The notes below the pieces were generated by a model, which saw only the letters and a program-made list of their open reading frames with translations, ran no database searches and was not told the DNA's origin. Source: an uncultured Oscillospiraceae bacterium (GTDB lineage Bacteria; Bacillota; Clostridia; Oscillospirales; Oscillospiraceae). From it: a DNA stretch of 15,493 bases. Location: contig CAKTED010000010.1 of NCBI GenBank assembly GCA_934546725.1, positions 1 to 15,493 of the forward strand. The letters are read 5' to 3'. Below, piece by piece: positions 1-14,675 of this stretch (position 1 is the stretch's first letter; every line of letters begins with the position of its first letter). The position numbers and the translations under genes were made by a program.

Positions 1-378
1 CTCCTCACAGATATCCTCATCCTCGGCTACAACGATGCAGCCGACCTCGGCGCCCTCCTGATCGGCCCAGTTATCAAGATATGCACGGCTCGGACCGAAG
101 GGGCTCTGGCCGAGCTGCTTTATGTCCTCGTCCTCCCAGGTGACTATATCAACGACACCGGGAAGAGCCTTTGCCCTGCTGATGTCCATTTTGATTATCT
201 TCGCGTTTGCGTAGGGGCTGCGAAGAAACTTTGCGTGAAGCATATTGGGCATGACGTAGTCCATGCCGAACTTTGCTATACCGGTGGCAAGAGCATAGGA
301 AAGCTTTCCGGGAAGGTTGTGCTTGCCGACTACGCGGAAATGCTCTCTTTGTCCGTTTACGCCTGCTATATCAGCCAT
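1..378 (-). CDS. Xanthine dehydrogenase-family molybdenum-binding subunit, N-terminal part (3' end beyond the window)
   Basis: The first 126 codons are visible; the gene continues past the left edge. The reading begins MADIAGVNGQREHFRVVGK and contains the family's N-terminal block: a GKLSYA stretch, DYVMPNMLHAKFLRSPYANA (residues about 40-59), ALPGVVDIVTWED, and a later VVAEDEDICEE stretch, matching the aldehyde oxidase/xanthine dehydrogenase a/b hammerhead domain. In this family the large subunit binds molybdopterin cytosine dinucleotide and hydroxylates, or reductively dehydroxylates, heterocyclic or aromatic substrates. The Mo-cofactor residues lie outside the window, so substrate and activity cannot be read. 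The start overlaps the stop of the (2Fe-2S) subunit by 8 nt (ATGGCTGA), which argues for translational coupling and one complex. An FAD subunit is not seen in the window and may lie further left. Confidence 0.85.
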   Translation of the reverse strand, partial: MADIAGVNGQREHFRVVGKHNLPGKLSYALATGIAKFGMDYVMPNMLHAKFLRSPYANAKIIKMDISRAKALPGVVDIVTWEDEDIKQLGQSPFGPSRAYLDNWADQEGAEVGCIVVAEDEDICEE

Positions 379-1051
379 TTGTCACCGCTCCTTCCTGCTG
401 GGACATTTTTTCAACTGCTTCCATTATGGCCTGAGCGTGGCGGGGATATGTTCCGCAGATGCAGATGTTTCCGGCCAGCGCCTCATTGCATTCCTGAACA
501 GTGGGGTGTGGGTTCTTGTCAAGAAGAGCCTTTGCCGAAACAAGGAAACCGGTGGTGCAGTAGCCGCACTGCATGGCGTCCCAGCGGCAATAGGCATCTA
601 TGAGCGGCTTCCACCTGGGATCTGCCGCAATGCCCTCGATGGTCTGAATGTTATGACCCTCACACTCAACCGCGAGCATCTGGCAGGAAAGAACGGCGCG
701 TCCGTCCATTATTACGGTGCAGGAGCCGCAAACGCCCTTGTCGCACATGTGCTTGGCGCCCGTGAGACCGAGACGGAACTGAAGCGTGCGCTTGAGAGTC
801 CAGTGCGGCTCGATGAGAACCTCGCAGTTTTTTCCGTTAAGCGTAAGAACAACGGTTGTCGGCGGTATTGCGCCGACGTGCTCGATGGAATAGTGCTGGC
901 AGATATCGGAATAGCTGCCGAAGACCCTGCCGCAGAGCGGACAGCGAAATTCGGTAAGCGTAGTGGGGATAGAGCCTATCTTCTCCGAAACCTTTTCGGA
1001 CGCGGTTTCAAGAGTGAAGGTCATATCCGTACCTTTTGGCTGAGTTGCCAT
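371..1051 (-). CDS. (2Fe-2S) subunit of a xanthine dehydrogenase-family hydroxylase, with an N-terminal C2H2 zinc-finger extension
   Basis: A 226-residue protein. Residues 67-226 form the usual small electron-transfer subunit. A plant-type [2Fe-2S] domain has C103-x4-C108-x2-C111-x11-C123, and a helical [2Fe-2S] domain has C162-G-Y-C165 and, 31 residues on, C197-I-C199. It would pass electrons from the Mo centre of its partner (overlapping gene at 1-378) to a flavin subunit or other acceptor. Family members are normally about 150-170 residues. Here about 65 extra N-terminal residues contain C37-x2-C40-x3-F44-x8-H53-x4-H58, an exact fit to the classical C2H2 zinc-finger pattern. The start at 1051 has a strong site (AAGGAGGGAACATA before ATG); a later in-frame ATG (codon 10) has no comparable site and would keep the finger anyway. 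The finger's role is unknown. Confidence 0.93.
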   Translation of the reverse strand: MATQPKGTDMTFTLETASEKVSEKIGSIPTTLTEFRCPLCGRVFGSYSDICQHYSIEHVGAIPPTTVVLTLNGKNCEVLIEPHWTLKRTLQFRLGLTGAKHMCDKGVCGSCTVIMDGRAVLSCQMLAVECEGHNIQTIEGIAADPRWKPLIDAYCRWDAMQCGYCTTGFLVSAKALLDKNPHPTVQECNEALAGNICICGTYPRHAQAIMEAVEKMSQQEGAVTNG

Positions 1052-1131
1052 TATGTTCCCTCCTTGAATGTGGAGGCGCGGAGCGTGGGGAGCGCCGCGG
1101 CCTCGCTGTGATATTTTCTGCTGATAATAAT

Positions 1132-1160
1132 ATATTAAGTTAAACGCGCGACTTTGTCAA
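1132..1160 (-). promoter_or_regulatory. Sigma-70-type promoter of the Mo-hydroxylase operon
   Basis: On the minus strand a consensus -35 TTGACA (1160-1155) is followed after 17 bp by TAATAT (1137-1132, 4 of 6 matches to TATAAT). Predicted transcription starts near 1125, leaving a leader of about 75 nt before the ATG at 1051. Consensus -35 and ideal spacing make this likely; there is no experimental support. Confidence 0.6.
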
Positions 1161-1320
1161 CGTTTGTTAACAGCAAATTTGGGTAAAAAACTGAAATAAA
1201 GTTGCCTGAAGGACAAAAAATGTGAGGAATTGCACATATTTGAGAGAAAAATGTTTCATTATAAAATTTTTGATATTTTTATTTGAAAGACACATTATAC
1301 ACAAATGAGAATATAAAATG

Positions 1321-1332
1321 TTTTGGCCAAAA
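1321..1332. promoter_or_regulatory. Perfect palindrome, candidate operator
   Basis: TTTTGGCCAAAA is a perfect 12-bp palindrome lying between the two divergent promoters, about 85 bp upstream of the SDR -35 box and about 160 bp from the Mo-hydroxylase -35 box. A dimeric regulator site is plausible from position and symmetry only; no cognate regulator is assigned. Confidence 0.3.
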
Positions 1333-1415
1333 TACTTCATATGGAGCAGAATGGGAGATTAAGAATTATCCATGTTTGACAAAAACAAAAAATTCAGGAA
1401 AAGACACAAAAACGC

Positions 1416-1445
1416 TTGACAATGCAGTGCGTATCCGTTTATGAT
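1416..1445 (+). promoter_or_regulatory. Sigma-70-type promoter of the SDR gene
   Basis: Consensus -35 TTGACA (1416-1421), 18-bp spacer, and -10 TATGAT (1440-1445, 5 of 6). Predicted start is near 1452, giving a leader of about 70 nt that ends in a GAGGAGAG ribosome site at 1510-1517 before the ATG at 1525. Strong by sequence, unlike an obviously activator-dependent promoter. Confidence 0.65.
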
Positions 1446-1524
1446 AAAAAGCAGGTATTAACAATACCATTAAAATCGTTTAGCAAAAATTAATTATATA
1501 AAATATTCCGAGGAGAGTGACAAC

Positions 1525-2517
1525 ATGAAAGATTTTGCAGGAAAATTCGCGTTTATCACCGGCGGCGCTTCGGGCGCAGGACTTGGCCAGGCAAAGGTTT
1601 TTGCAAAGGCCGGCATGAAGGTGGCCATTGCGGACGTTCGCCAGGATGCGCTTGACAGCGCCGTCGGCGAGATCCAGGCATATGCGGGCTGCGACGCGAA
1701 GGATATTCTCCCCCTCAAGGTAGACCTCACCAACCGCGAGGAGTATACCGCAGCTGCCGATAAGTTTGAAGAGATCTTCGGCGGACCTCCGCACCTTCTT
1801 ATCCAGACGGCAGGCGTTAACTCCTTCGGCCCCGTCGAGGCTTCCACCTTTGACGATTTTGACTGGGTCATGGGCGTTTGCCTGAACCATGTCGTGAACG
1901 GACTGCTCATTTTTGTTCCGCGCATGATAAAGGCCTATGCGCACAAGACCGAGTTCCATGTTGCTACGACCTCTTCCATGGGCGCTTTCATGGCAGGCTC
2001 CGGCACCGGCCCCTATTCCGCCGCCAAGGCCGCCGTTAACAACCTCATGTATTCCTATGCCGACGCTCTGAAGAAGTATGGCTCCGGCGCGACCGTTCTC
2101 TGCCCCGGCAACATCAATTCCAATATCGGCAACGCTGAGAAGTACCGTCCCGAAAATCTCCGCCATACCGGCTACCATGTAAGCGAGGGCACCATGATGC
2201 ACCTGCGCTCTGTCCATGCCACCGGCATCGACCCGGTTGAGCTGGCAGAGATACTCAAGGAAGCCATTGAGAGCAACCGTATCATAGCGCTTCCCAACCA
2301 TGAACCAGACACATGGGCGGCTCAGCTGCGCGGTCTTGACGAGGTCATCGAGGAGTATACCCTTCCCGGCGACGTACGCGAGGCAAGAAATGCCGAGCGC
2401 ATGAAGGCCATGATGGAGAAAATGAAGGAATCCGGCGATGGTCCCATGATGTGGGCTGTTCCCGAGGGCGGCGAGGCCTTTGGTCAGGCACGCAAGGATC
2501 TTGATTGGATCGAGTAA
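1525..2517 (+). CDS. SDR-family NAD(P)-dependent oxidoreductase
   Basis: A 330-residue Rossmann-fold dehydrogenase/reductase. Visible features are the cofactor motif T12-G-G-A-S-G-A-G19, an acidic residue at the end of strand 2 (D37 in VAIAD) that usually means NAD(H) rather than NADP(H), and the catalytic set N121, S151, Y164-x3-K168 in canonical spacing (S is 13 residues before Y). The usual NNAG motif reads QTAG (94-97). The protein is longer than the ~250-residue norm because of a C-terminal extension rich in Met, Glu and Lys (about residues 250-330). It would oxidise an alcohol or reduce a ketone. It stands alone on the plus strand between the Mo-hydroxylase genes and the DAPG hydrolase-like operon, suggesting a step in the same pathway; the substrate is unknown. 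The start is set by GAGGAGAG 7 nt upstream. Confidence 0.92.
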   Translation: MKDFAGKFAFITGGASGAGLGQAKVFAKAGMKVAIADVRQDALDSAVGEIQAYAGCDAKDILPLKVDLTNREEYTAAADKFEEIFGGPPHLLIQTAGVNSFGPVEASTFDDFDWVMGVCLNHVVNGLLIFVPRMIKAYAHKTEFHVATTSSMGAFMAGSGTGPYSAAKAAVNNLMYSYADALKKYGSGATVLCPGNINSNIGNAEKYRPENLRHTGYHVSEGTMMHLRSVHATGIDPVELAEILKEAIESNRIIALPNHEPDTWAAQLRGLDEVIEEYTLPGDVREARNAERMKAMMEKMKESGDGPMMWAVPEGGEAFGQARKDLDWIE

Positions 2518-2590
2518 GTAATTACATAATATTGCGATATTTTGGGGCGCGGTCATTTTTGCCGCGCCCTGAGCTTTTGGAGAGTACAGA

Positions 2591-2636
2591 ATGGCGGACG
2601 CCGCAGAGAAAGGAGAACTGCGGCGCCCGTCATTTT
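2591..2636 (+). terminator. Intrinsic terminator-like hairpin after the SDR gene
   Basis: Arms 2591-2606 and 2618-2633 pair over 16 positions with one A-C mismatch and one G-U pair (core GCCGCAG/CTGCGGC), and the right arm runs into TTTT at 2633-2636. A second GC hairpin lies just upstream (2545-2552 with 2562-2569, GGGCGCGG/CCGCGCCC). Both sit between convergent genes and may limit read-through from either side; the T-run is short. Confidence 0.5.
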
Positions 2637-2661
2637 ACAATATGTTATTGAAGTGAAAAAC

Positions 2662-3438
2662 TCAGAACTCAAATTTATCCTTAAATTCGGCGTAAACCTC
2701 GGGAAGAATGGCGGCAAGATTGGTAAATTCCTTAATGTTGTGCATAAGCAGGGCCTTGACCGGCTGGAGCGGGAACTGAACTCCGTCGGGGATGAGCTTG
2801 ACGGGTTTGCCGTTTACAACGCCGCTGCCCATCCAGAAGCGCGTCCGCAGCTCGCAGCCGCCATCTACCGGACGAATGAAGTGAACCATAATGGTGGGGG
2901 CGTACTCATCGCCGGAGCAGACGATCGTGCCGTCAAACTCAGCCAGCTTCTGTGGGTCAAAGCCGATGTCGACAGGGTTGCGGAAATGAATCTGAATTTT
3001 TTCGGGACCCATGCCGCAGTCCTCCTCAATATCGTGAATGGTATCCCAATAGCGCTCCTTCATGGAAAGAGAGGAATTGAGCGCCTTGTCAAGATTCTGA
3101 GTTTGGCAATAATAATGATCGTCATGATCCCAAATTTTGTAGCGCAGCGGTGCAACGCCGTGCCAGGCAAACCACCAGTCGAACATCTCGGGCGTAACGC
3201 CTGGCATTGGAGTCAGGTTGGCGAGGACGGCAGTGCCGTCCTGCAGCTGACAGTAACCCTTTTCCATGGGAAGATAGCCGGGGTCAAAGAGCCTGTTGAG
3301 CTCCTGCGCCGCGAGCGCCAGCGAAGGATCCACCGGAGCTTCGACCTCATCGTAGCGTGACTGCGCGGGTGCGACCATATCGCGTATAAAATATTTGTAA
3401 AGAGGGGATTTCATCTCCTCGGGTGTTACCGGAACCAT
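2662..3438 (-). CDS. DAPG/phloretin hydrolase-family protein (putative C-C bond hydrolase)
   Basis: A 258-residue protein that I recognise as resembling the 2,4-diacetylphloroglucinol hydrolase (PhlG) and phloretin hydrolase family. These metal-dependent enzymes cleave the C-C bond between an aromatic ring and an acyl carbon. Matching stretches are GYCQLQDGT (61-69), MPGVTPEMFDWWFAWHG (78-94), LRYKIWDHDDH (98-108), IHDIEEDCG (134-142), FRNPVDIGFDP (152-162) and, near the C-terminus, H233-x3-E237. The HxxxE pair and one of H105/H108 with E138 or E139 are candidate zinc ligands by analogy with PhlG. A longer reading from 3489 is possible, but AAAGGAGGT lies just before the ATG at 3438, so that start is used. 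It is last in a leftward operon, 20 nt after the flavoprotein gene. An acylphloroglucinol-like substrate is inference. Confidence 0.82.
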   Translation of the reverse strand: MVPVTPEEMKSPLYKYFIRDMVAPAQSRYDEVEAPVDPSLALAAQELNRLFDPGYLPMEKGYCQLQDGTAVLANLTPMPGVTPEMFDWWFAWHGVAPLRYKIWDHDDHYYCQTQNLDKALNSSLSMKERYWDTIHDIEEDCGMGPEKIQIHFRNPVDIGFDPQKLAEFDGTIVCSGDEYAPTIMVHFIRPVDGGCELRTRFWMGSGVVNGKPVKLIPDGVQFPLQPVKALLMHNIKEFTNLAAILPEVYAEFKDKFEF

Positions 3439-3458
3439 AAAAAAGACCTCCTTTAATA

Positions 3459-5135
3459 TCAGACTGTGGGAGCGGGCTGAATGGGCCATTTCTCAATGGG
3501 GACATCCTCTGTGGAAAGTGTCATTTCACCGTTTTTGTTCTGAATAATTATCCATTTGAGCCAGTTCTCGTTATCCATCTGCGGATAATCCTCGCGCAGG
3601 AACCAGCCGCGGGACTCCCTGCGCGCCATGGAGGCGGTGTAGTGCATCTCTGCGGAGAGAACCATGGCCTCGGCCTCATGGCAGGCGAGGAGGTCGTGCA
3701 TATCCTCAGCTCTGAGCGTTTTCGCCAGCTCCTTAGCCTGCTTTACATACTCGAGAGCCTTTTCCATGCGGTCGAGCTTCATGTAAACGGACTGCTCCAT
3801 GGGCGCCATTGCCTGCTGAACGAGGGCGATGACCTCTTTGGCTCTGTGGCCTTCGCTGCGCTCAAGCGGAGCGTAAACTGCTTTGAAGCAGTCTGCAACG
3901 GCCTCGGGGCAGAGCGCATGCTCGCCCTCGGGCATTTTGACGTCCTTCATGCCCTCTGCACAGACGACTGCTGCAAAAACGGCGTTAAGAATACCGGAGC
4001 CGCGGTTGCGCCCCGGAGGGGCGGGAACAGCACCGGGTGCGCCAGAGCCGCTGTAGCTGCAATCGCCGATGGCGTAAAGACCGGTGATGCTGGTCTGCAT
4101 GTCGTGCTCTACACGTATGGGAGACTGCTCACCTACGAAAAGCGGGCAGACCTCAAGATCCTTGTCCACCTCGTTGGCACTCTCGGTATTCAGGTCACGG
4201 AATTTCTGACCGTAAGGGCGTTTCCAGATGGCAAGCTGATCGTCCGAGCCGTCCTGCGGACCAAAATCAAGATGAATGGGGCCGGTGCCGTTCTGCATAT
4301 TCAGGTACCACTCGCGAATGGCGCTGCTGTTTATATCAGTTTCACGCATTTTGCAGAAATTCTTGGTAACGTGCTCGCCCTTTGCGTTATACATGAAGTT
4401 TTCTCCGAATACTACCTCATTATGGCTTTTTACCTTCATGAGCTGGGCAAAATTTCCAAACTCGGCATTGCGCATCTTTGCTCCTGCGCGGTAGGCCGCG
4501 GCAATGCCGTCTCCGCGCCCGCTGCTCCACATTGAGGCTATGCGATAGTTCTGGCTGCCGGTTGCGAGAACGACCTTTTTGGCTCTTATTGCGTAGAACG
4601 TGCCGTCAAGGATGCTGTATGCTGCGGCACCTCGAATTTCGCCGTTTTCAACAAACAGCTCCGCCATTGCGGTTTTGTCAAGAATGCGAACCCCGAGCTT
4701 TTCGGCGCGCCTGCGTATCTGGAGCGTTATGTCAAGATCAACGCAGATCATCGAAGTGAACGGACCCGTGGGAGCAACGTTGTAGCTTCCATCCTCGTTT
4801 TTGGGAACGTTCACGCCCCAGGAGGAGAGCCTGTCGAGCAGTGCGTGGTTCATCTCGACGTATTTGAGCATCATTTCCTGGTCGCCGAGGTAGCAGCCAA
4901 TGGCATTAACATGGAATGCGAGAAAGTCCATGGGAGTAATGCGATCAAGCTGAAAATACTGCAGCACTCCGCCGCCCTTGTTGGCCTTGCCTCCATATCC
5001 GGCGGTCTGCTTTTCAACGATGAGTATATCTAGCTCGGGCGACTGCTCCTTGAGAGCTGCGGCGCAGCACAGACCTGCAATGCCGCCGCCGGCGATAAGA
5101 ACGTCACAGCCAAGCTCCTGTCTTTTAATCTCCAT
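3459..5135 (-). CDS. FAD-dependent flavoprotein, fumarate reductase/adenylylsulfate reductase alpha-like
   Basis: A 558-residue FAD protein of the FAD_binding_2 type. The N-terminal dinucleotide fold has G16-x-G18-x2-G21 and E41 at the end of strand 2; VVLATGSQNYR (188-198) and LYAIGDCSYSGSGAPG (353-368) are the later FAD-contact motifs. A helical C-terminal domain (about 400-520) ends in RESRGWFLREDYP-x5-NWLKW, typical of the succinate dehydrogenase/fumarate reductase/AprA group. Its closest organisation is AprA with the ferredoxin AprB: here too a two-cluster ferredoxin gene lies just upstream (11-nt gap). No sulfate-reduction genes are near, so it is more likely an oxidoreductase acting on an organic substrate with ferredoxin-type electron supply. 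The start is preceded by AGGGGGC. The active-site residues of fumarate reductase were not identified, so the reaction is open. Confidence 0.88.
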   Translation of the reverse strand: MEIKRQELGCDVLIAGGGIAGLCCAAALKEQSPELDILIVEKQTAGYGGKANKGGGVLQYFQLDRITPMDFLAFHVNAIGCYLGDQEMMLKYVEMNHALLDRLSSWGVNVPKNEDGSYNVAPTGPFTSMICVDLDITLQIRRRAEKLGVRILDKTAMAELFVENGEIRGAAAYSILDGTFYAIRAKKVVLATGSQNYRIASMWSSGRGDGIAAAYRAGAKMRNAEFGNFAQLMKVKSHNEVVFGENFMYNAKGEHVTKNFCKMRETDINSSAIREWYLNMQNGTGPIHLDFGPQDGSDDQLAIWKRPYGQKFRDLNTESANEVDKDLEVCPLFVGEQSPIRVEHDMQTSITGLYAIGDCSYSGSGAPGAVPAPPGRNRGSGILNAVFAAVVCAEGMKDVKMPEGEHALCPEAVADCFKAVYAPLERSEGHRAKEVIALVQQAMAPMEQSVYMKLDRMEKALEYVKQAKELAKTLRAEDMHDLLACHEAEAMVLSAEMHYTASMARRESRGWFLREDYPQMDNENWLKWIIIQNKNGEMTLSTEDVPIEKWPIQPAPTV

Positions 5136-5146
5136 TGTTCTGCCCC

Positions 5147-5392
5147 CTATCTGTATCGCTCAAAGGTCTGCATGAAATGCTCGCTTGCATAGTCGGGAAT
5201 GACCTTGATGGCATCCTTCCTGCATACGCTTTGGCAGAAAAAGCAGTGTTCGCAGTCCTCTACGTATTTGAAAACAGGCTTATTTGAAGCCTCGTCCCAT
5301 CGGATAACGTCAACGAAGCAGGCCTTGTAGCAAAGCTTGCATCCGACGCAGCGGCTGGGGTCAAACTCTATCCTGTGATTTGTGTTTATCAT
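5147..5392 (-). CDS. Ferredoxin with two [4Fe-4S] motifs, AprB-like
   Basis: An 81-residue protein with two CxxCxxCxxxC motifs, CVGCKLCYKAC and CEHCFFCQSVC, each expected to hold a [4Fe-4S] cluster. The proline that often follows the fourth Cys is absent in both (CF and CR). A TTG at 5413 would add seven residues, but the strong GGAGG site lies inside that extension and 9 nt before the ATG at 5392, so the shorter start is preferred. It is first in the operon with the flavoprotein and the hydrolase-like gene, and is probably the electron donor or small subunit for the flavoprotein. The lysR gene diverges from its upstream side. Confidence 0.92.
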   Translation of the reverse strand: MINTNHRIEFDPSRCVGCKLCYKACFVDVIRWDEASNKPVFKYVEDCEHCFFCQSVCRKDAIKVIPDYASEHFMQTFERYR

Positions 5393-5431
5393 TACGCTGC
5401 ACCTCCATAACAAAACAGTAACATTTCGGTC

Positions 5432-5461
5432 TTGATATTACAAATACAAATATGGTAAAAT
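5432..5461 (+). promoter_or_regulatory. Promoter of the LysR-type regulator and probable binding region
   Basis: A -35 TTGATA (5432-5437), 18-bp spacer and -10 TAAAAT (5456-5461) predict a start near 5468, 28 nt before the ATG at 5496. The stretch ATATT-acaaatac-AAATAT (about 5435-5453) inside it is partly symmetric and could be a regulator site. On the opposite strand a perfect TATAAT (5468-5463) has no recognisable -35 at the right distance, as would suit an activator-dependent promoter for the ferredoxin operon; this last point is tentative. Confidence 0.5.
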
Positions 5462-5495
5462 GATTATAAACAAAAAGTTATTGGGGCGGTGCGAA

Positions 5496-6362
5496 ATGAC
5501 ACAGACTCAGGTGAAATGCTTTATGGCGGCTGCGCAGGAGGAGAATATGACCCGTGCGGCGAACAGATTGTACATATCTCAGCCGGCAATAAGCAAGAGC
5601 GTGGCGGCCATGGAGGAGGAGCTGGGATTTGAGCTGTTCATACGGGGGGAGAAAGGCCTTGCTCTTACATATGCCGGGCGCCAGCTTTATGAGTTTTTTG
5701 AGGAAACAGAGCGGAGATACTCCGAGGCTTTGACGAAAATAATGAGCGACCTGCACGGAAAAAAGGCGCGAATACGCCTTGGCTGTCCGGATACATGGAA
5801 TCCAAACCTGTTTTATGCAGGGCTGGAGGATGAATTGGGCGAGAAATATCTGGCAGAGAACCTCAGCATAGAATGCTTTGCGCTTTCAGAGCTTGTAATA
5901 CGCCTCAAAAGCGGAAGGCTGGACATGATCCTTACGCATGATCTGTATGACGTATCAGGCTTTGGCATAGCTGCCCGGAGCATAGCCGAGAGCCGCTGCG
6001 GTATACTTTATGCGAAAAAATATTTTCCGAATGTGTGCTGTCGGGAAGATTTCGGTGATGCGCCGTTTCTTGTCTACGATGTGAACATACAAAAGCGGAT
6101 TACCGGACTTTTATATACGGGAGAAGGAAAAGAATCGAATATACGGCTGTGCAGCAACCAGGCCACGGCGATCTTCGAGCTTTCTCGCGGACAGGGAATA
6201 ATGATATTTACGGACTGGGACGGGATCATCGATTCAAAGGCGTTCGGATTTCTGCCGATAGATGCAGTGATTCCCGTTAAGGCGCTGTATTTGGAGGATG
6301 GCGTTACGCCTGCTGTTTCGGAGCTTACAGACCGATTGAGACATATGTTTCTGAATGGTTGA
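5496..6362 (+). CDS. LysR-type transcriptional regulator
   Basis: A 288-residue regulator. Residues 1-60 hold the LysR winged helix-turn-helix with the characteristic run NMTRAANRLYISQPAISKSV followed by EEELGFELFIRG. The remainder is a periplasmic-binding-like effector domain. The start at 5496 is preferred to an in-frame ATG at 5460: the family begins just before the first helix, a GGGGCGG site sits at 5483-5489, and the predicted promoter overlaps the longer version. It is divergent from the ferredoxin-flavoprotein-hydrolase operon with 103 bp between, the classic layout for a LysR regulator controlling its neighbour in response to a pathway compound. It may also act on the SDR and Mo-hydroxylase promoters, which cannot be seen from sequence. 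Confidence 0.93.
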   Translation: MTQTQVKCFMAAAQEENMTRAANRLYISQPAISKSVAAMEEELGFELFIRGEKGLALTYAGRQLYEFFEETERRYSEALTKIMSDLHGKKARIRLGCPDTWNPNLFYAGLEDELGEKYLAENLSIECFALSELVIRLKSGRLDMILTHDLYDVSGFGIAARSIAESRCGILYAKKYFPNVCCREDFGDAPFLVYDVNIQKRITGLLYTGEGKESNIRLCSNQATAIFELSRGQGIMIFTDWDGIIDSKAFGFLPIDAVIPVKALYLEDGVTPAVSELTDRLRHMFLNG

Positions 6363-6387
6363 CAGCGCGGTCGGAGACATTTATACT
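6359..6387 (+). promoter_or_regulatory. Sigma-70-type promoter of the hflX operon
   Basis: Consensus -35 TTGACA (6359-6364), exactly 17 bp, and -10 TATACT (6382-6387, 5 of 6). The -35 box overlaps the lysR stop codon (6360-6362). Predicted start near 6394 gives a leader of about 36 nt. This marks hflX as a separate unit from lysR and argues against a hflX start at 6355. Confidence 0.7.
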
Positions 6388-6429
6388 TTTATATACTACT
6401 ACGATATTACGGAATTGAGGATAAACGGC

Positions 6430-7725
6430 ATGGATATTGAACAGGGCTTCAGCAGCAAATACGAAACGATGAACCGCGCACCTGAGCGGGCGATGCTCGT
6501 GGGCTTATATTCTGACGCGCTTGAGCCGGATGAACGTTCGGATGAGGTGACGATGGCGGAGCTGGAGGCTCTGCTGGAAACGGCGGGAGGAGTGGCCTGC
6601 GGTACGGCGATACAGGTGCGCCCAACGCCCGATCCGGGCAGCTTTATCGGCTCTGGCAAGGTGAAGGAGGTCAAAGCCGCCGTGGAGGCGAATGCCTGCG
6701 ACCTCGTCGTGTTCGATAATGAGCTTTCGCCTTCGCAGATGCGTGTGCTTGCTGAGGAGCTGGGCGTTAAGGTGCTCGACCGCAGCGGACTGATACTGGA
6801 TATTTTTGCGGGCCGGGCCAAAACGCGCGAGGGCCGACTTCAGGTGGAGCTTGCGCAGTATAAGTATCTGCTGCCGCGTCTTGTCGGAATGTGGTCGCAC
6901 CTTGTGCGGCAGACGGCCTCGGGCGGCAGCCGCATAGGGACGCGCGGACCCGGCGAAACGCAGCTTGAAAGCGACAGACGGCATATCCGCCGCAAGATAA
7001 GCGCTTTGGAGGAGGAGCTGGCGGAGGTACGCCGTGTGCGGGCGACTCAGCGCCGCCTGCGGGAGAAAAATTCCGTAAGCACTGTGGCTCTCGTCGGCTA
7101 TACGAACGCGGGAAAGTCTACGCTGCTCAATGCGCTCACGGATTCGGATATCCAGACAGGCGACCGCCTTTTCGATACGCTTGATACGACAACGCGCCGC
7201 CTGCGGCTGGATGATACACTCGAGGTGCTTCTTTCAGATACCGTCGGATTTATCAGAAAGCTGCCGCACCAGCTCATTGAGGCGTTCAAGGCAACGCTTG
7301 AGGAGCTGGAATATGCAGACCTCATCGTGCATGTCATTGACGTATCGAATCCGGAGTGGGAAAAGCAGGCGGACGTTGTGAACCGTCTCATAGCCGAGCT
7401 CGGCGCGGCTGAAACGCCAAGGATTGAGGTTTATAACAAGTGCGACAAGCCGGGCGCTGCCGAGATTTTCCCCAAAGACGGCGCGGTAAAGATATCCGCC
7501 GCCACCGGAGAGGGGCTTGACGGACTGAAAAAGCGTATGTTCGATATTCTCAGTGCGGGCATAAAAACAGTCGAGCTGCTGCTGCCGTATGATAAGGGCG
7601 CGCTGCTGGATACGATACACAGGGAGTGCAGGGTGCTCGAAACTGAGTACCGCGACAGCGGGGTTTTTGTTCGCGCCGTGTGTCCGGCAGAGCTTTATGG
7701 CAAGCTGCGGGAGTATGTGATATGA
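6430..7725 (+). CDS. hflX: Ribosome-associated GTPase HflX
   Basis: A 431-residue member of the HflX family, which binds 50S subunits and splits or rescues stalled ribosomes under stress. An N-terminal domain contains GSFIGSGKVKEV and VVFDNELSPSQMR. A linker carries the family signature SRIGTRGPGETQLESDRR before the GTPase domain: P-loop G223-YTNAGKST-231, switch II D270-T-V-G273 and NKCD (336-339). The frame is open to an ATG at 6355, but that start would lie at the promoter's -35 box; the ATG at 6430 has GAGG upstream and gives a normal family length. It heads a four-gene operon and its stop overlaps the next start by 4 nt (ATGA). Confidence 0.96.
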   Translation: MDIEQGFSSKYETMNRAPERAMLVGLYSDALEPDERSDEVTMAELEALLETAGGVACGTAIQVRPTPDPGSFIGSGKVKEVKAAVEANACDLVVFDNELSPSQMRVLAEELGVKVLDRSGLILDIFAGRAKTREGRLQVELAQYKYLLPRLVGMWSHLVRQTASGGSRIGTRGPGETQLESDRRHIRRKISALEEELAEVRRVRATQRRLREKNSVSTVALVGYTNAGKSTLLNALTDSDIQTGDRLFDTLDTTTRRLRLDDTLEVLLSDTVGFIRKLPHQLIEAFKATLEELEYADLIVHVIDVSNPEWEKQADVVNRLIAELGAAETPRIEVYNKCDKPGAAEIFPKDGAVKISAATGEGLDGLKKRMFDILSAGIKTVELLLPYDKGALLDTIHRECRVLETEYRDSGVFVRAVCPAELYGKLREYVI

Positions 7726-8366
7726 GCGGCTACCTTGTGCCGAAGGGCTTCGGCGAGGCGGAGTTTATTGAAAAGCGGAGCCGCTTCATCGGGCGCGTCT
7801 GGCGCGTTGAAAGCGAGGACGAGGCCATTGCGCATATAAAGGAAATGCGTGAAAAGCACTGGGACGCCACGCATAATGTTTATGCCTATATTATCCGCGA
7901 TGGCGGCGCGATGCGCTATTCTGATGACGGCGAACCGGGCGGCACGTCCGGCATGCCGACGCTTACGGTTTTCAGAGCGGCGGAGATTTTTAACGTCTGC
8001 TGCGTTGTAACGCGCTATTTTGGCGGTATCCTTCTTGGAACGGGCGGCCTTGTGCGCGCGTATTCGCAGGCGGCGAAGCTGGCGCTTGAGGCAGCCGGGA
8101 TAAGCCGCATGGACGTTTGGGACATTACCGCCGCTGCCTGCCCGTACAGCCTGTATGAGCGCGTGCGGCGCGAGCTTGAGGCGGCGGGGGCGATAGTGGA
8201 AAATGTGGACTATGGCGCTGATGTGACGATAGAGGCCGCGCTGCCGCATGGGGGCGACGAGGCGCTCAACGTAAGGCTTGCGGATATAAGCGCGGGCTCC
8301 GTGGAGCTGCTTGTGCTTGGAAGCGAGGAGCGGGCCATCGAGGTAAGGAAAGGGGAAAACGGATGA
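7722..8366 (+). CDS. YigZ/IMPACT (UPF0029) family protein
   Basis: A 214-residue protein with the family's hallmark motifs: RSRFIG (19-24), ATHNVYAY (49-56), DDGEPGGTSG (68-77), and VVTRYFGGILLGTGGL (95-110), followed by a smaller C-terminal domain from about 130. Bacterial members (YigZ in E. coli, YvyE in Bacillus) are conserved but lack a firm biochemical role; the eukaryotic homologue IMPACT acts in translational control. Placement directly after hflX fits a translation-linked role. The start at 7722 overlaps the hflX stop in an ATGA and has GGGAG upstream; an in-frame ATG at 7680 would lie deep within hflX and is unlikely. Confidence 0.93.
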   Translation: MSGYLVPKGFGEAEFIEKRSRFIGRVWRVESEDEAIAHIKEMREKHWDATHNVYAYIIRDGGAMRYSDDGEPGGTSGMPTLTVFRAAEIFNVCCVVTRYFGGILLGTGGLVRAYSQAAKLALEAAGISRMDVWDITAAACPYSLYERVRRELEAAGAIVENVDYGADVTIEAALPHGGDEALNVRLADISAGSVELLVLGSEERAIEVRKGENG

Positions 8367-9010
8367 AAAAAATATCAAACTATGAGCTTCAGTGCGAGGA
8401 CTGGCGGCAGCGGTTCCTGAAAATGGACGTTTCAGCGCTTATTAAAAAACTGCCCGAGCTGCGCATTGAGGGCGGCGACCTGGTCGTTTCGCATTATGCC
8501 CGCCGCTGCGGCGTTGAGCTTGAAACGGGGCTTATCCGCGATCTTGATGCTCCGGAGAAGCCGCTGAGCATATCGGAAAGACTGAATATTTATACGCTTT
8601 TTGAGTATTCAAAGCCGGAGGCGCGGCTGAGCGGGAGCTGGGTGCCGTTTTCCGAGCTGCGCGACGCCTCCGTTTTCACGGCGGCGTTTCGCAGGGGAAA
8701 TATAGAACCCTTTGCTGCGGCGTTTTCGGGAAGGCCGGAGGCGCTCGTGCGCGGCTGTGAAAAATTGGGCGGCACGCGGCTTGCAATGTCCGACGTCGGC
8801 TATGAGCTTAAGGCGTTCGACTGCATTCCCGTGAGGTTCCTGTTCTGGGACGGGGACGATGAGTTCCCGGCGCAGGCAAACATACTTTTTGACAGCAGCG
8901 CGGTGGACTTCATACACGTTGAAAGCACGGTCACGATAGCGTCCGTCGGGGTGGCGAGAATAGCCGAGGAGGCCGGCTGCGATGTCGGCGGCGGGTTTGA
9001 CATGATCTGA
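8363..9010 (+). CDS. DUF3786 family protein
   Basis: A 215-residue protein I recognise as DUF3786, a domain found in anaerobic bacteria, with no known function. Visible family-like stretches are the CEDWRQRF start, VVSHYARRCGVEL (41-53), SERLNIYTLFEY (70-81), GSWVPFSELRDASVF (90-104) and the C-terminal FDCIPVRFLFWDGDDEFPAQ with FDSSAVDFIHVES. No signal peptide or membrane segment. Its start overlaps the yigZ-like stop by 4 nt (ATGA), with AAGGAAAGGGG as ribosome site. Operon partners point to a housekeeping, possibly translation- or stress-linked job, but this is context only. Confidence 0.8.
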   Translation: MKKISNYELQCEDWRQRFLKMDVSALIKKLPELRIEGGDLVVSHYARRCGVELETGLIRDLDAPEKPLSISERLNIYTLFEYSKPEARLSGSWVPFSELRDASVFTAAFRRGNIEPFAAAFSGRPEALVRGCEKLGGTRLAMSDVGYELKAFDCIPVRFLFWDGDDEFPAQANILFDSSAVDFIHVESTVTIASVGVARIAEEAGCDVGGGFDMI

Positions 9011-9028
9011 CGGCGGGAGGAGAAAGCT

Positions 9029-9565
9029 ATGAACATAACCGTTTATCTCGGGGCAAGCGAGGGAAATGACCCCGCGCTGAAGTGCGCAGTGCGAGAGCTT
9101 GGAAAATGGATAGGGCAGAGCGGGAACCGGCTTATTTACGGCGGCTCGAAAACCGGACTGATGGGCGAGCTTGCCATGAGTGCGATTGAGGCCGGAGGCG
9201 AGGCGACAGGCGTTGAGCCGCGTTTCTTTGTCGAGGAGGAGCTTCAGCTCGACGAGCTTACGGAGCTGATCGTAACGGAGAATATGGCTGAGCGTAAGGC
9301 GAAGATGATAGAGCTTGGCGATGCTTTTATCGCCTTTCCGGGAGGTACGGGGACGCTGGAGGAAATTTCCGAGGTAATGTCCATGGTCTCGCTGAAGCAT
9401 CTGGCCGCGCCATGCATTATTTATAACCTCCACGGCTATTACGACAGCCTGAGGGTTCTTCTGAATCATATGATCGAAACGGGTCTCTCCTCACCGGAGC
9501 GGCAGCAGGGGATATTCTTTGCCTCCGACCTTGATGAGATACGCCGCATCCTGGCGGAACGCTGA
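9029..9565 (+). CDS. LOG-like (TIGR00730) Rossmann-fold protein, putative nucleoside 5'-monophosphate phosphoribohydrolase
   Basis: A 178-residue protein with the lysine decarboxylase-like/LOG signature: YGGSKTGLMG (37-46), R89-K90 and P104-GGTGTLEE-112. Characterised members hydrolyse cytokinin riboside 5'-monophosphates or related nucleotides to free base and ribose 5-phosphate; the older 'lysine decarboxylase' label is a misannotation. Bacterial members are often nucleotide hydrolases of uncertain physiological substrate. GGGAGGAG lies 6 nt before the ATG. It is last in the hflX operon, 18 nt after the DUF3786 gene, and is followed by a convergent intergenic region with a strong hairpin. 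Confidence 0.92.
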   Translation: MNITVYLGASEGNDPALKCAVRELGKWIGQSGNRLIYGGSKTGLMGELAMSAIEAGGEATGVEPRFFVEEELQLDELTELIVTENMAERKAKMIELGDAFIAFPGGTGTLEEISEVMSMVSLKHLAAPCIIYNLHGYYDSLRVLLNHMIETGLSSPERQQGIFFASDLDEIRRILAER

Positions 9566-9644
9566 GAATTTGGGTACACCATTTGGAGCACCCGACCCCG
9601 ACCGGCAGACGTAACAGGCTCAATGTACATAACGAAATAGCGCA

Positions 9645-9677
9645 AACCAGCCCGGACAGTCAATGTCCGGGCTGGTT
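9645..9677. terminator. Perfect 14-bp hairpin between convergent genes
   Basis: AACCAGCCCGGACA (9645-9658) and its exact reverse complement (9664-9677) flank a 5-nt loop. It lies between the end of the hflX operon and the end of the leftward secreted-protein gene, where a terminator is expected. There is no T-run on either strand beyond GGTT/GGTTT, so termination efficiency is uncertain. No gene was found in 9566-9789. Confidence 0.5.
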
Positions 9678-9789
9678 GCTGCAAGGGAGGATCATGGCCG
9701 CTTATTGTGCCACACTTTGTTGTAGTCACCTAAACGATAACACATAATGCTGTGATCTTATGCGCTGTTCCAGCAGCACCGGAGTTGGT

Positions 9790-11724
9790 TTAAGCGACAT
9801 TAAAAGACCTGCTTATGGAATATGTTGTCGACTCGTTTCCGTTTTCAGCCACGATGAGCACATAATATGTGTAGGAACCTGCCGGGAGATTATTGAAGAT
9901 CAGGTCATTGTTTATGGTCGACCGAATGTTGACTGACGCAGCGTTCGGCGTGTAAGTGCCCTTCTGCCCGCTCACTGTATTGCCGGAGGAGTTAAGGATA
10001 GAGCCGGTTATGCTGGTAATTTTTCCACAGTCCGTGGAGACAACACCACGAAGGCCGAAGTGACTGCCGCGCGTAAGTGTGCCGGAGGGCGAAACCTCAC
10101 CGCTGATGGAAATGGTAGGCTTCTGATAAGTGATTTTGCAGCGGTCGCTGCTGATCCAGCTGCCGTCTGACAGCTGATACCAGGTGTTGCCATAGTGATT
10201 CTGCGTTGTTCCCACGATGGCCACCTTTGTGCCGTCAGAGAGAGTCGACTTATAATATGCAGAGTTGCCATAGGGTCGGCTCTGCACATATGCCTTTTCG
10301 ACGATCGTTACAGAAAAGTCTGCCGCCGAGACCGTATAGGGGTAGGCCTCGCCGCATTTTTCACAGACGCCGAGAGAAGTGTAGCTGTGGTCGCACTCCT
10401 CGGGGGAACCGACTGTAAACTCGCGGGAGAATGTCTGCTGGACGGACTGCGTTCCATTCACTGCAACGGCTTTCACATAGTATGTGTAAGAACCGTTGGG
10501 AAGCTTGCCGAAGATCAGGTCGTTATTGATGGTCGTCCGAATGTTGACGGATGTCGTATTCGGGGTGTAGGTCCTGCTCTGTACCGTTTTGCCGGAGGAG
10601 TCAAGGATGGAGCCGGTCAGGCTGGTGATTTTACCGCAGTCCGTAGAGATGGTGCCGCGAAGACCGAAATTTTTGCCCGGTGACAGAGTGCCGGAGGGCG
10701 ATACCTCGCCGGTGAGGGTAAGTGTGGGCTTCTTGTCAGCAGTTTTGCAGCGGTCGCTGCATATCCAGTTCCCGTCCGACAGCCGATACCAGGTGTTTCC
10801 GTAGTGGTTCTTTGCTGTTCCAACGACGGTCACAGCCGTACCGGCAGGGATGGTGGACACATAGTACGAAGAGTTGCCATAAGGCTCAGATTGCGCATAC
10901 GCCTTGTCGACGGTAGTTGCAGCGAAATCCGCCTTGACCAGTGCATAAGGGTACGATTTGCCGCACTTATCGCAGATGCCGAGAGAATTATAGCTGTGGA
11001 CGCACTGGGGAACGGCGCTGTTGAGACTCCTGTTAGCGTTTCTGAGCCAAATTCCACGATTACCATAGGCGTAAATAAAGTCTGCATAGGTGAAATATTT
11101 GAGGTCGATTTTTGCACCACCCTCGTCATTCAATGATCCGGTATAGCCGAGAACATAGAGACCGTCATCATTACATGAGATAAAAGTCATCGAGTGTGCT
11201 TTATCATACTTTGACCCATCTGGAGAAGTGTAATAAGTTCTTATATGTTCGCCAGCCTGTGCATTTTCTTTCAGAAATGCCTTCAATGCCTCAGGGTCTG
11301 TTTTCTGCTCATCAGAAAGCTCAATCCGATCCCGTTCGTTGTACCCCTCTTCGTCATAGATAACTTCACTTACAAATAAAGCGTATGCCTTACAGCCCGC
11401 TGCTCTCTCCTGAAGCGTTTTGGTATAAGTTCCGTCAGTGATATTCTTAAACACAGGGCCTCGTTTATTGGGGTAATTGAAATTTCCACCGCCAATGGCA
11501 GCAAATTTTGAATCAAACAGGAAGTGCGAAATGTAAGCTTTTGCCTGCGCAGAGGTGATATTTGTTTTATCAAAGTTCTGCTTATCAATGGCACTGAGCA
11601 TCTCGGAAATACGGGCGTCATTTCTTTCACTTATTGTTTCTGACGCAAAAGCACTTGGCATCATGAAAGTTGTCAGTAAAGCGAACAGCAGCAATATGCC
11701 TAAAAATCGTTTCATCGTTTTCAA
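9790..11724 (-). CDS. Secreted protein with putative Cys/His peptidase-like domain and two tandem zinc-ribbon/SH3-like repeats
   Basis: A 644-residue exported protein. Residues 1-27 are a signal peptide (basic start, hydrophobic core, AFA before the predicted cut). Residues 30-235 look like a small papain/NlpC-like or transglutaminase-like domain, with C111 in RAAGCKAYALF and H177 in KAHSMTF as candidate catalytic residues; this assignment is tentative. Two repeats of about 200 residues follow (241-441 and 444-644). Each begins with C-x-H-x7-C-x2-C (C241/C444), then an SH3-like part containing HYGNTWY and DGxW, then a beta-rich part with SGEVSPSGTL or TGEVSPSGTL. The start is TTG: AGGAGG lies 9 nt before it, whereas the ATG at 11715 is 18 nt away. 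It follows the SLH gene by 16 nt in one operon. Likely cell-wall or extracellular; substrate unknown. Confidence 0.82.
   Translation of the reverse strand: MKTMKRFLGILLLFALLTTFMMPSAFASETISERNDARISEMLSAIDKQNFDKTNITSAQAKAYISHFLFDSKFAAIGGGNFNYPNKRGPVFKNITDGTYTKTLQERAAGCKAYALFVSEVIYDEEGYNERDRIELSDEQKTDPEALKAFLKENAQAGEHIRTYYTSPDGSKYDKAHSMTFISCNDDGLYVLGYTGSLNDEGGAKIDLKYFTYADFIYAYGNRGIWLRNANRSLNSAVPQCVHSYNSLGICDKCGKSYPYALVKADFAATTVDKAYAQSEPYGNSSYYVSTIPAGTAVTVVGTAKNHYGNTWYRLSDGNWICSDRCKTADKKPTLTLTGEVSPSGTLSPGKNFGLRGTISTDCGKITSLTGSILDSSGKTVQSRTYTPNTTSVNIRTTINNDLIFGKLPNGSYTYYVKAVAVNGTQSVQQTFSREFTVGSPEECDHSYTSLGVCEKCGEAYPYTVSAADFSVTIVEKAYVQSRPYGNSAYYKSTLSDGTKVAIVGTTQNHYGNTWYQLSDGSWISSDRCKITYQKPTISISGEVSPSGTLTRGSHFGLRGVVSTDCGKITSITGSILNSSGNTVSGQKGTYTPNAASVNIRSTINNDLIFNNLPAGSYTYYVLIVAENGNESTTYSISRSFNVA
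9793..11004 (-). repeat. Two tandem ~600-bp intragenic repeats
   Basis: Codons 241-441 (11004-10402) and 444-644 (10395-9793) encode clearly homologous units in the same order: Cys motif, SH3-like segment, beta-rich segment. The first unit has an extra Cys pair (CSDRC) where the second has SSDRC. The divergence shows an old internal duplication rather than a recent one. Confidence 0.85.
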
Positions 11725-11740
11725 TCTCTTTTTCCTCCTG

Positions 11741-12325
11741 TTATCGTATTACGATTATATTGGACACAAGAACGGCAATGTTTGAGCGTGTAATTACATC
11801 GCCCAATGTGTCTTCAACACCGCGGAGAAATCCGTAGTTATCAGCAACCGAGATATAGCCATTGGGATAGCCACCGGCGTCGATCGCCGCATCGTTATAT
11901 CCGATCCCGGCCATCAGCATTTTGATGGCTTGCTCATAGGTGACCGTATCCGAGGGACCGAATTTTCCGTTGCCGTATCCGCTTATGATACCCTGTTCAT
12001 AAGCCCATGCAATATAACCGTTTGCCCAGTGAGAGGTCGGCACATCCGTGAATACAGTGGTCGACATGCTCTGCGCATCTGTCTCCGCATCAAGCAGGCG
12101 ACATACGACAGCCGCACACTGAGCACGGGTGATACCCTGGTCGGGGTTGAAATTGCCGTTTTCATCCCCTGTAAATATCCCCATCCCCTGGGTCAGTTCC
12201 GCCGCCCATGCGTAGTCCGCGTCATCTGACACGTCCGGAAATACGGAGCCCGCAGACGCAGTAGTTGCAAGCATTCCTATCGCCAGCGTAAGACAAAGAA
12301 AAATACCAAATACTCGTTTTTTCAT
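11741..12325 (-). CDS. Small exported SLH-domain protein
   Basis: A 194-residue protein consisting of a signal peptide (1-25, ending TASA) and S-layer homology repeats only: SLH1 28-79 (VFPDVSD...GITRAQCAAVVCRLL), SLH2 91-140 (VFTDVPTSHWANGYIAWAYEQGI) and an SLH3 at about 143-190 (GGYPNGYISVADNYGFLRGV...ITRSNIAVLVSN). SLH modules bind secondary cell-wall polymers and anchor proteins to the wall. Larger S-layer proteins carry this same trio followed by a long effector region, which is absent here: the protein ends directly after SLH3. The start at 12325 has GGTGAGGG just upstream; the frame runs on to 12367 but without a signal peptide at its start. Its stop lies 16 nt before the next gene, and a short inverted repeat (ATCGTA-t-TACGAT, 11743-11755) covers the stop region. 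Confidence 0.88.
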   Translation of the reverse strand: MKKRVFGIFLCLTLAIGMLATTASAGSVFPDVSDDADYAWAAELTQGMGIFTGDENGNFNPDQGITRAQCAAVVCRLLDAETDAQSMSTTVFTDVPTSHWANGYIAWAYEQGIISGYGNGKFGPSDTVTYEQAIKMLMAGIGYNDAAIDAGGYPNGYISVADNYGFLRGVEDTLGDVITRSNIAVLVSNIIVIR

Positions 12326-12388
12326 AAATCCCTCACCTTTTTCATAATATGTACTTTTGTAAAACATGGTATATATTACTTTATTTAC

Positions 12389-12417
12389 AATATACTACAA
12401 AACATATGCTATTTCAA
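12389..12417 (-). promoter_or_regulatory. Sigma-70-type promoter of the SLH/secreted protein operon
   Basis: On the minus strand TTGAAA (12417-12412), 17 bp, then TATATT (12394-12389). Predicted start near 12382 and a leader of about 57 nt to the ATG at 12325. Good spacing and near-consensus boxes in an AT-rich stretch. Confidence 0.5.
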
Positions 12418-12520
12418 GGCTTGAACCGAATATTTCCAGCAAAATTGCGATTTTTCAGTGCTATCAGCTGCCGGGCTTCGTCCTGATTACGGTTGCCCAC
12501 ACTCGCTGCGCTCTCCTGCA

Positions 12521-12600
12521 ATTCAGAGGGAGCAGAGCGACCGGAGAATCCCCTGGATGGTTGATGCAGGGAAACGATAACGTACTGCCATGCGCCTCCG
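12521..12600 (+). repeat. 80-bp direct repeat, copy 1
   Basis: Begins ATTCAGAGGGAGCAGAGCGA and ends GTACTGCCATGCGCCTCCG. It matches copy 2 at 74 of 80 positions with no gap. The start resembles a type of intergenic repeat (on the other strand GGATTC...TCGCTCCGCTCCCTC) that I have seen scattered in Clostridia genomes, from general familiarity only. Confidence 0.8.
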
Positions 12601-12606
12601 AGAGGG

Positions 12607-12637
12607 ATTCAGAGGGGTACTGCGTACCCCTCTGAAT
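12607..12637. repeat. Perfect 14-bp inverted repeat with 3-nt loop
   Basis: ATTCAGAGGGGTAC (12607-12620), loop TGC, then the exact reverse complement (12624-12637). It sits between the two direct repeats, and its ATTCAGAGGG end equals the first ten bases of each direct repeat, so it belongs to the same cassette. There is no following T-run, so a simple terminator role is not supported. Confidence 0.75.
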
Positions 12638-12703
12638 GAAGGAGGTGGTGGGCTTCCGCGTCCACAGCGACGCGCCCCGGTTCGCGCTTGCCTTATGCAC
12701 GTC

Positions 12704-12783
12704 ATTCAGAGGGAGCGGAGCGACCGAAGAATCCCCTGGATGGTTTATATAGGGAAACGATAACGTACTGCCGTGCGCCTCCG
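12704..12783 (+). repeat. 80-bp direct repeat, copy 2
   Basis: Begins ATTCAGAGGGAGCGGAGCGA and ends GTACTGCCGTGCGCCTCCG. Six substitutions separate it from copy 1 at 12521-12600; the two start points are 183 bp apart. Confidence 0.8.
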
Positions 12784-12817
12784 TGTCCCCAAACTTTCCA
12801 TAAATAAAACTTTTTAA

Positions 12818-12855
12818 GCAGAAAAGGCAGCCACGATTTTTCGTGACTGCCTTTT
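12818..12855 (-). terminator. Intrinsic terminator of the hydrogenase operon
   Basis: On the minus strand, 38 nt after the hydrogenase stop codon, AAAAGGCAG-t-CACGA pairs with TCGTG-g-CTGCCTTTT around a 4-nt loop (one mismatch, 12855-12822), and the right arm ends in a T-run. A typical Rho-independent terminator. Confidence 0.85.
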
Positions 12856-12892
12856 TGAACGAATTGCTGGTTATCTGAAAAGCTGCGCCGGA

Positions 12893-14659: not shown

Positions 14660-14675
14660 TTTTCTTCCTCCTGAC

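Follow-up and report, generated by a model that had tools for sequence, protein, structure and literature searches.

A predicted C2H2 zinc finger ahead of the [2Fe-2S] domains in a clade of xanthine-oxidase-family molybdenum enzymes

Small iron–sulfur subunits of the xanthine-oxidase family of molybdenum (Mo) enzymes share a Fer2 + Fer2_2 fold, as in nicotinate dehydrogenase (3hrd_D), CO dehydrogenase (1n62_D), 4-hydroxybenzoyl-CoA reductase (4-HBCR; 1rm6_C/1sb3_C) and glyceraldehyde oxidoreductase (4zoh_C). Here, we analyzed a subunit of this kind encoded on a 15,493-nt stretch of DNA from an uncultured Oscillospiraceae bacterium (GCA_934546725.1, contig CAKTED010000010.1, positions 1 to 15,493; hereafter, the window), in which the two [2Fe-2S] domains are preceded by a segment carrying a Cys2His2 (C2H2) zinc-finger motif. 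The chains listed above have the same fold as the window protein at 38–42% identity and a TMt of 0.86–0.90; they align from query residue 65 or later, and none spans the finger. The two-cluster subunit of Escherichia coli PaoA (YagT; 5g5g_A) has an N-terminal extension of its own, as its match starts at chain residue 63, but that alignment spans only query residues 67–213. A Foldseek search with the whole model returned only xanthine-oxidase-family chains among the matches listed (best 50).

The C2H2 pattern is known above all from gene regulators of eukaryotes, and in bacteria such fingers are familiar mainly from regulators. The Ros/MucR proteins are bacterial Cys2His2 regulators that bind DNA and have an extra helix, and in their finger Asp can stand for the second Cys (PMC9779718). 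However, the Ros ligands C79, C82, H92 and H97 enclose a 9-residue spacer (PMC9779718), whereas the window finger has a spacer of 12 and is fused to iron–sulfur domains, on which grounds membership in Ros/MucR was rejected. No Ros model occurred among 25 of the 26 Pfam families matched by the 121 proteins analyzed below. Eukaryotic classical C2H2 fingers (2drp and 1xrz) and the consensus finger 1mey have the same spacing, core residues and predicted fold, but the window finger is single, neutral and fused to an iron–sulfur protein. The closest functional analogy is that of the archaeal zinc-containing ferredoxins, in which zinc sits between an N-terminal extension and the ferredoxin core and adds stability, with zinc-less isoforms also existing (PMC2946596). 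These differ in using three His and a core Asp and in being bacterial-type [3Fe-4S][4Fe-4S] ferredoxins of another fold (PMC2946596); the window protein was not assigned to them because its candidate ligands are Cys2His2.

The finger-bearing subunit and the conservation of its motif

An earlier note on this DNA, made from the sequence alone, had described 371..1051 as a C2H2 finger fused to the [2Fe-2S] subunit of a bacterial molybdenum hydroxylase. Its coordinates were correct; the strand, which it did not give, is minus, and the plus-strand frame over 371..1051 is not the protein. The locus comprises the following features:

371..1051, minus strand: 226-aa small [2Fe-2S]2 subunit bearing the C2H2 finger at its N terminus, ATG start (open reading frame and Pfam)
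1058..1064, minus strand: AGGAGGG ribosome-binding site upstream of ATG 1051 (sequence)
974..1012, minus strand: predicted helix, residues 14–26, N-terminal to the finger (AlphaFold model)
878..949, minus strand: C2H2 finger, residues 35–58 (motif, conservation, AlphaFold model)
941–943, 932–934, 893–895 and 878–880, minus strand: finger ligands C37, C40, H53 and H58, respectively
644..856, minus strand: plant-type [2Fe-2S] ferredoxin domain, residues 66–136, with C103, C108, C111 and C123 (Pfam, alignment)
425..643, minus strand: Fer2_2 second [2Fe-2S] domain, residues 137–209, with C162, C165, C197 and C199 (Pfam, alignment)
1..378, minus strand: 5' part of the Mo-cofactor subunit gene (~126 aa), truncated at the window edge

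The protein has the makeup of a xanthine-oxidase-family small subunit: its Fer2/Fer2_3 and Fer2_2 domains scored above the Pfam cutoffs, all eight cluster Cys (103, 108, 111, 123, 162, 165, 197 and 199) were invariant in 121 aligned proteins, and a Mo-subunit gene adjoins it, with the small-subunit stop (371–373) and the Mo-subunit start (ATG 378–376) lying in an 8-base overlap. The closest named relatives of the window are Oscillospiraceae/Clostridiales metagenome-assembled genomes (MAGs), at 85–88%. A strong ribosome site, AAGGAGGGAACATA, lies immediately upstream of ATG 1051. Within the first 110 codons, in-frame ATG, GTG or TTG occurred only at codons 1, 10 and 102 (rarer start codons are outside this count). 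A start at codon 10 would leave the finger intact, and one at codon 102, before the first cluster Cys, would delete residues 66–101, i.e., the N-terminal half of the ferredoxin fold; no comparable ribosome site precedes codon 102. With zero ATG/GTG/TTG between codons 10 and 102, a start between finger and core was ruled out, and the earlier note's own counter-scenario, translation beginning after residue 60, failed for want of a usual start codon in this interval.

Within the ~65-residue segment preceding the [2Fe-2S] domains, residues 35–58 read F-R-C-P-L-C-G-R-V-F-x5-I-x2-H-x4-H, which contains the motif C37-P-L-C40-G-R-V-F44-x8-H53-x4-H58 and all three core hydrophobics. This is exactly the C37-x2-C40-x3-F44-x8-H53-x4-H58 arrangement that had been claimed to stand before a complete eight-Cys subunit, and, as also claimed, it follows the classical C2H2 spacing (C-x2-C-x3-hydrophobic-x8-H-x3..5-H). 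Shuffling the 64-residue extension produced a C2H2 pattern in 16 of 200,000 trials, which, together with conservation in homologues, rules out a chance origin of the motif.

The strict pattern was found in 110 of 121 proteins (the window protein and its 120 best matches with the whole protein as query), and the 11 misses had either Asp for C40 (n = 7) or His for F44 (n = 4). Because a whole-protein query could favor finger-bearing matches, a second search used the core alone (residues 66 onward). It revealed the finger ligands in 117 of the 120 top-ranking proteins, most of which were also in the whole-protein search, with Cys at position 40 in 114 and Asp in 3. Among the misses, P0133 begins within the finger, P0147 is without the extension and P0124 cleanly lacks the finger; this last, a 170-aa subunit that retains the MYTQESAQ-type N terminus, is a natural deletion.

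Across the 121 aligned proteins, C37, H53 and H58 were invariant (121/121), and position 40 was Cys in 114 and Asp in 7. Residue 44 was F/Y in 113 and residue 50 was L/I/M in 120, while the intervening finger residues were mostly variable, with the exceptions of R36 (114/121), P38 (108/121) and Y54 (109/121). The homologues thus conserve both the ligands and the three core hydrophobics of a classical C2H2 finger, the reverse of the ligand loss that the earlier note had named as evidence against one. A further alignment (A2) of 67 locus segments (4 of 71 omitted) was chosen by ligand pattern, so its invariant ligands are not counted here. Asp at the second finger Cys occurred in P0058, P0069, P0076, P0082, P0088, P0112 and P0119 as well as at loci L024, L025, L048, L054 and L060, and, on the tree, arose on at least two lines. 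The CysAspHis2 fingers of the Ros type provide a precedent for such versions (PMC9779718).

AlphaFold predicted a beta-beta-alpha finger with block predicted local distance difference test (pLDDT) values of 95–97, i.e., the fold expected of a classical C2H2 finger is present in the model. The search of the extension alone, which the earlier note had proposed, returned matches to C2H2 fingers that were weak but consistent. Pfam zf-C2H2_4 matched 100 of the 121 proteins at E ≤ 0.01, and precomputed Pfam assigns PF13894, PF00096 or PF13912 to 18 of the 120 matches. Motif, conservation and predicted fold together uphold a C2H2 finger fused to a [2Fe-2S] small subunit.

Distribution of the finger and its companion subunits

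The finger was present in 72 of 79 genome-contig loci, which were gathered with six scan patterns, one of them derived from the finger itself; it was absent in six (L070, L071, L072, L073, L074 and L079), and the subunit was cut in one. The clade carries the labels Bacillota, Acidobacteriota, Spirochaetota, Planctomycetota and Myxococcota. A set of eight paralogues at ≤50% identity with assigned loci comprised six without the finger, one with it (L095, 49%) and one unparsed (L097), and all 15 further paralogue loci at ≤50% identity (L104–L118) lacked it. In a family search, six of the eight matches at ≥59% identity were read, and the finger was found in 6/6. With the core as query (E ≤ 1e-45), one order yielded three matches in 2 of 295 genomes, all with the finger, and 7 of 199 genomes in the phylum of an Acidobacteria MAG gave 14 matches (six with the finger, seven without and one cut); several of these order and phylum matches were genes already met in the locus search. 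The seven fingerless subunits of the Acidobacteria-side phylum were at 48–59% identity, and L124, cut by a contig edge, shows the H-x4-H half alone. The finger marks a clade, with several losses and with the paralogues examined nearly all lacking it, and it is not peculiar to the window protein.

In a 104-row tree, built after removal of identical cores and of reading frames longer than 400 aa, the finger proteins fell into one 93-row group (support 100/99) with six fingerless members inside. A selected 48-row tree, richer in the Acidobacteria-side phylum, needed four changes; in it, a weakly supported branch (85/65) puts a fingerless group in between the main clade and L095/L124. An early single gain with several losses would fit these trees, and two gains would also be compatible with them. 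At one fingerless locus (L073:7833–8483), a low-complexity NNHERQPANMP-type repeat stands where the finger would be.

The usual gene order in relatives is the small, the Mo and then the flavin adenine dinucleotide (FAD) subunit. The window's own Mo site and FAD subunit lie beyond the window, its Mo subunit ending before the catalytic-Glu site, and the features given here were read in relatives. The Mo-subunit cluster is represented in 69 sources, i.e., the window and 68 of the 79 loci. In the xanthine-oxidase family, this Glu is catalytic. At its site, placed by alignment to quinoline oxidoreductase and a CO dehydrogenase, 64 of 67 Mo-subunit rows had His (e.g., H745 of L008:8644–10989) and the other three were gapped, and G[VALIS]GE was found in the last 200 residues of 0 of the 67 rows. 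Three Mo subunits from two fingerless sister loci, at about 31% identity, retain the Glu; for L095, no Mo subunit was found within its fetched flank. The hydroxylase label of the earlier note is doubtful because the Mo subunits of the clade have His at the catalytic-Glu site (the window copy being cut).

In 38 of the 79 loci, assigned by clustering and length, the FAD subunit is ~780 aa long and has a Fer4_20 + Pyr_redox_2 module inserted in a CoxM-type fold (examples are L004:3568–5913 and L008:10999–13338; the insert was Pfam-checked in L008 and L071). The best Protein Data Bank (PDB) matches of the L008 insert were NfnL/GltD-like chains, and beside the insert is a segment that, by eye, resembles the [4Fe-4S] insert of 4-HBCR (TIGR03195 covers residues 3–155). 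The His for Glu and the FAD-subunit modules favor reductive rather than hydroxylating chemistry; by sequence and analogy, they speak for a clade chemistry that would be reductive, like that reported of Ucdh and 4-HBCR, reductive dehydroxylases that are xanthine-oxidase-family complexes running reductively (PMC12771579). A functional tie of the clade to these enzymes would be putative, and "zinc" has 0 occurrences in the main text of that paper (PMC12771579).

Possible roles of the finger

We read the protein as the small subunit of a xanthine-oxidase-family Mo enzyme whose C2H2 motif, recurring in 117 of the 120 closest relatives (three of them with Asp for C40), forms a predicted zinc-binding finger, likely a rigid, zinc-stabilized piece that docks the ferredoxin domain to a partner subunit; we give this reading somewhat better than even chances. 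Docking or structural zinc remains the best reading among the roles that the earlier note had offered, judging from sequence and model, and we infer zinc binding, the docking role and the contact with the Mo or FAD subunit alike. Zinc would fix a small domain sitting rigidly at the N terminus of the first [2Fe-2S] domain (the rigid join is predicted), and, with the finger fixed in this way, the small subunit would meet the Mo or FAD subunit over a larger surface. Electrons would still travel through the two [2Fe-2S] clusters, with the finger holding the assembly and carrying none.

Several observations weigh against this proposal. The window protein (P0002) is itself under the Pfam C2H2 cutoffs (17.8 vs 25.2 bits), and although AlphaFold2 is more confident for the whole subunit than for the fragment (blocks 31–60 at 84–92), the underlying alignments differ. 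The finger is dispensable, as fingerless close relatives exist at the six loci named above (of 79) and in P0124 and P0147 (of 120). No Mo-subunit column separated five fingerless from 62 other rows (criteria: a gap difference >0.7, or disjoint residues with >80% agreement in the finger group), and hence no partner is indicated; four of the five fingerless rows come from one group, and any Mo subunit >600 aa in a locus was included, so that some possibly lie outside the finger operon. In addition, the finger occurs with both FAD-subunit types (the insert-bearing type in 34 loci, the plain type in 16 and none seen in 22), and four loci with the insert have no finger, which leaves a link between finger and insert unsupported.

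An RRxFLK segment, which we take to be twin-arginine (Tat)-like, precedes the finger in 6 of the 72 finger loci (L041, L045, L048, L051, L060 and L076) and is also found in P0104 and P0122 of the 120 proteins; fingerless L072 retains it, and the Pfam TAT model matches 1 of the 121 proteins. Looser RR matches (L022, L028, L029, L032, L035, L040 and L075) were dropped by eye, as the RR was at or before the start Met or the RRxFLK plus hydrophobic layout was missing. The fold and the Pfam and PDB matches of the finger are largely those of DNA-binding C2H2 fingers, and the earlier note had listed nucleic-acid binding among its options. Such binding is nevertheless unlikely because of the Tat-like signals in some relatives, given that a finger destined for export would not be reading DNA, the neutral charge (mean −0.06) of what is a single finger, and the variability, in the 121 aligned proteins, of the usual recognition positions of the helix (−1, 2, 3 and 6, presumably finger residues 46, 48, 49 and 52). 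That the subunit moonlights as a regulator or is localized to nucleic acid through its finger seems highly improbable.

Alternatively, an external electron partner (a ferredoxin, flavoprotein or membrane carrier) could land on the finger, which would then not be a clamp between subunits. The finger is located on the plant-type ferredoxin domain, whose cluster is the one closer to the FAD in the xanthine-oxidase family, and unusual electron modules, in the form of the GltD/NfnL-like insert, are found in the clade. However, the finger occurs with and without this insert (34 vs 16; 22 unseen) and in members with and without the Tat-like signal, whose electron partners should differ, and we consider such a landing site rather unlikely. 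A role as a redox or zinc sensor, or as a helper of cluster or cofactor loading before assembly, draws on the fact that Zn-Cys2His2 sites can respond to oxidants and on the likelihood that many hosts are anaerobes; the replacement of one Cys by Asp, seen in two or more lines that keep the remaining ligands, would be odd for a thiol switch, and we regard this role as quite improbable. The several finger absences on the tree, the repeat in its place in L073, the clean absence in P0124 and the Ros-like Ml4/Ml5 fold without zinc (PMC9779718) are consistent with a largely passive N-terminal cap that keeps the finger fold without needing the metal, but C37, H53 and H58 are invariant while most residues between them vary, and a passive cap is unlikely.

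Neighboring genes and significance

The rest of the window contains the following:

1525..2517, plus strand: short-chain dehydrogenase, divergent neighbor (Pfam)
2662–5413, minus strand: consecutive genes for a DAPG/phloretin-hydrolase-like protein (PF18089), a fumarate-reductase-like flavoprotein and a small ferredoxin (Pfam)
9790–12367, minus strand: 644-aa protein with two similar repeats (in translation) and one weak DUF5776 match, beside an SLH-domain protein
12893–15365, minus strand: [FeFe]-hydrogenase large subunit and NuoF-like partner

Relatives of the short-chain dehydrogenase at E ≤ 1e-20 were found in 16 of the 79 loci, 9 of them at ≥52% identity. At the same threshold, the DAPG-hydrolase-like, FrdA-like, ferredoxin and LysR genes of the window had relatives in 0 of the 79 loci, many of which are short contigs. 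The repeat protein and the SLH-domain protein are a probable cell-surface pair, and the gene pair at 12893–15365 has the look of a bifurcating hydrogenase operon.

No paper describing a finger on a Mo-enzyme iron–sulfur subunit was found by title and abstract start among the matches listed (most subscription journals are outside the coverage), and literature searches by Ucd gene name or on xanthine-oxidase-family dehydroxylation returned nothing. As far as seen, this is a new architecture made of known parts that is already in databases through automatic Pfam and has gone unremarked. A broader picture, which we offer tentatively and hold to be possible but doubtful, is that of a widespread clade of reductive Mo enzymes in gut, termite and sediment anaerobes in which three innovations jointly (a zinc-locked C2H2 clamp on the electron subunit, His for the catalytic Glu in the Mo subunit and, in many members, an NAD(P)H module of the NfnL/GltD type inserted in the FAD subunit) would push electrons into demanding reductions of aromatic compounds from plants. 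Should the finger prove to be a clamp, the subunit would clearly exemplify the structural use of a metal-locked finger within an electron-transfer complex, for which the natural absences and the Cys-to-Asp versions would be ready-made controls. The analysis also draws attention to a clade of Mo enzymes in which the catalytic Glu of the family is absent from the active site.
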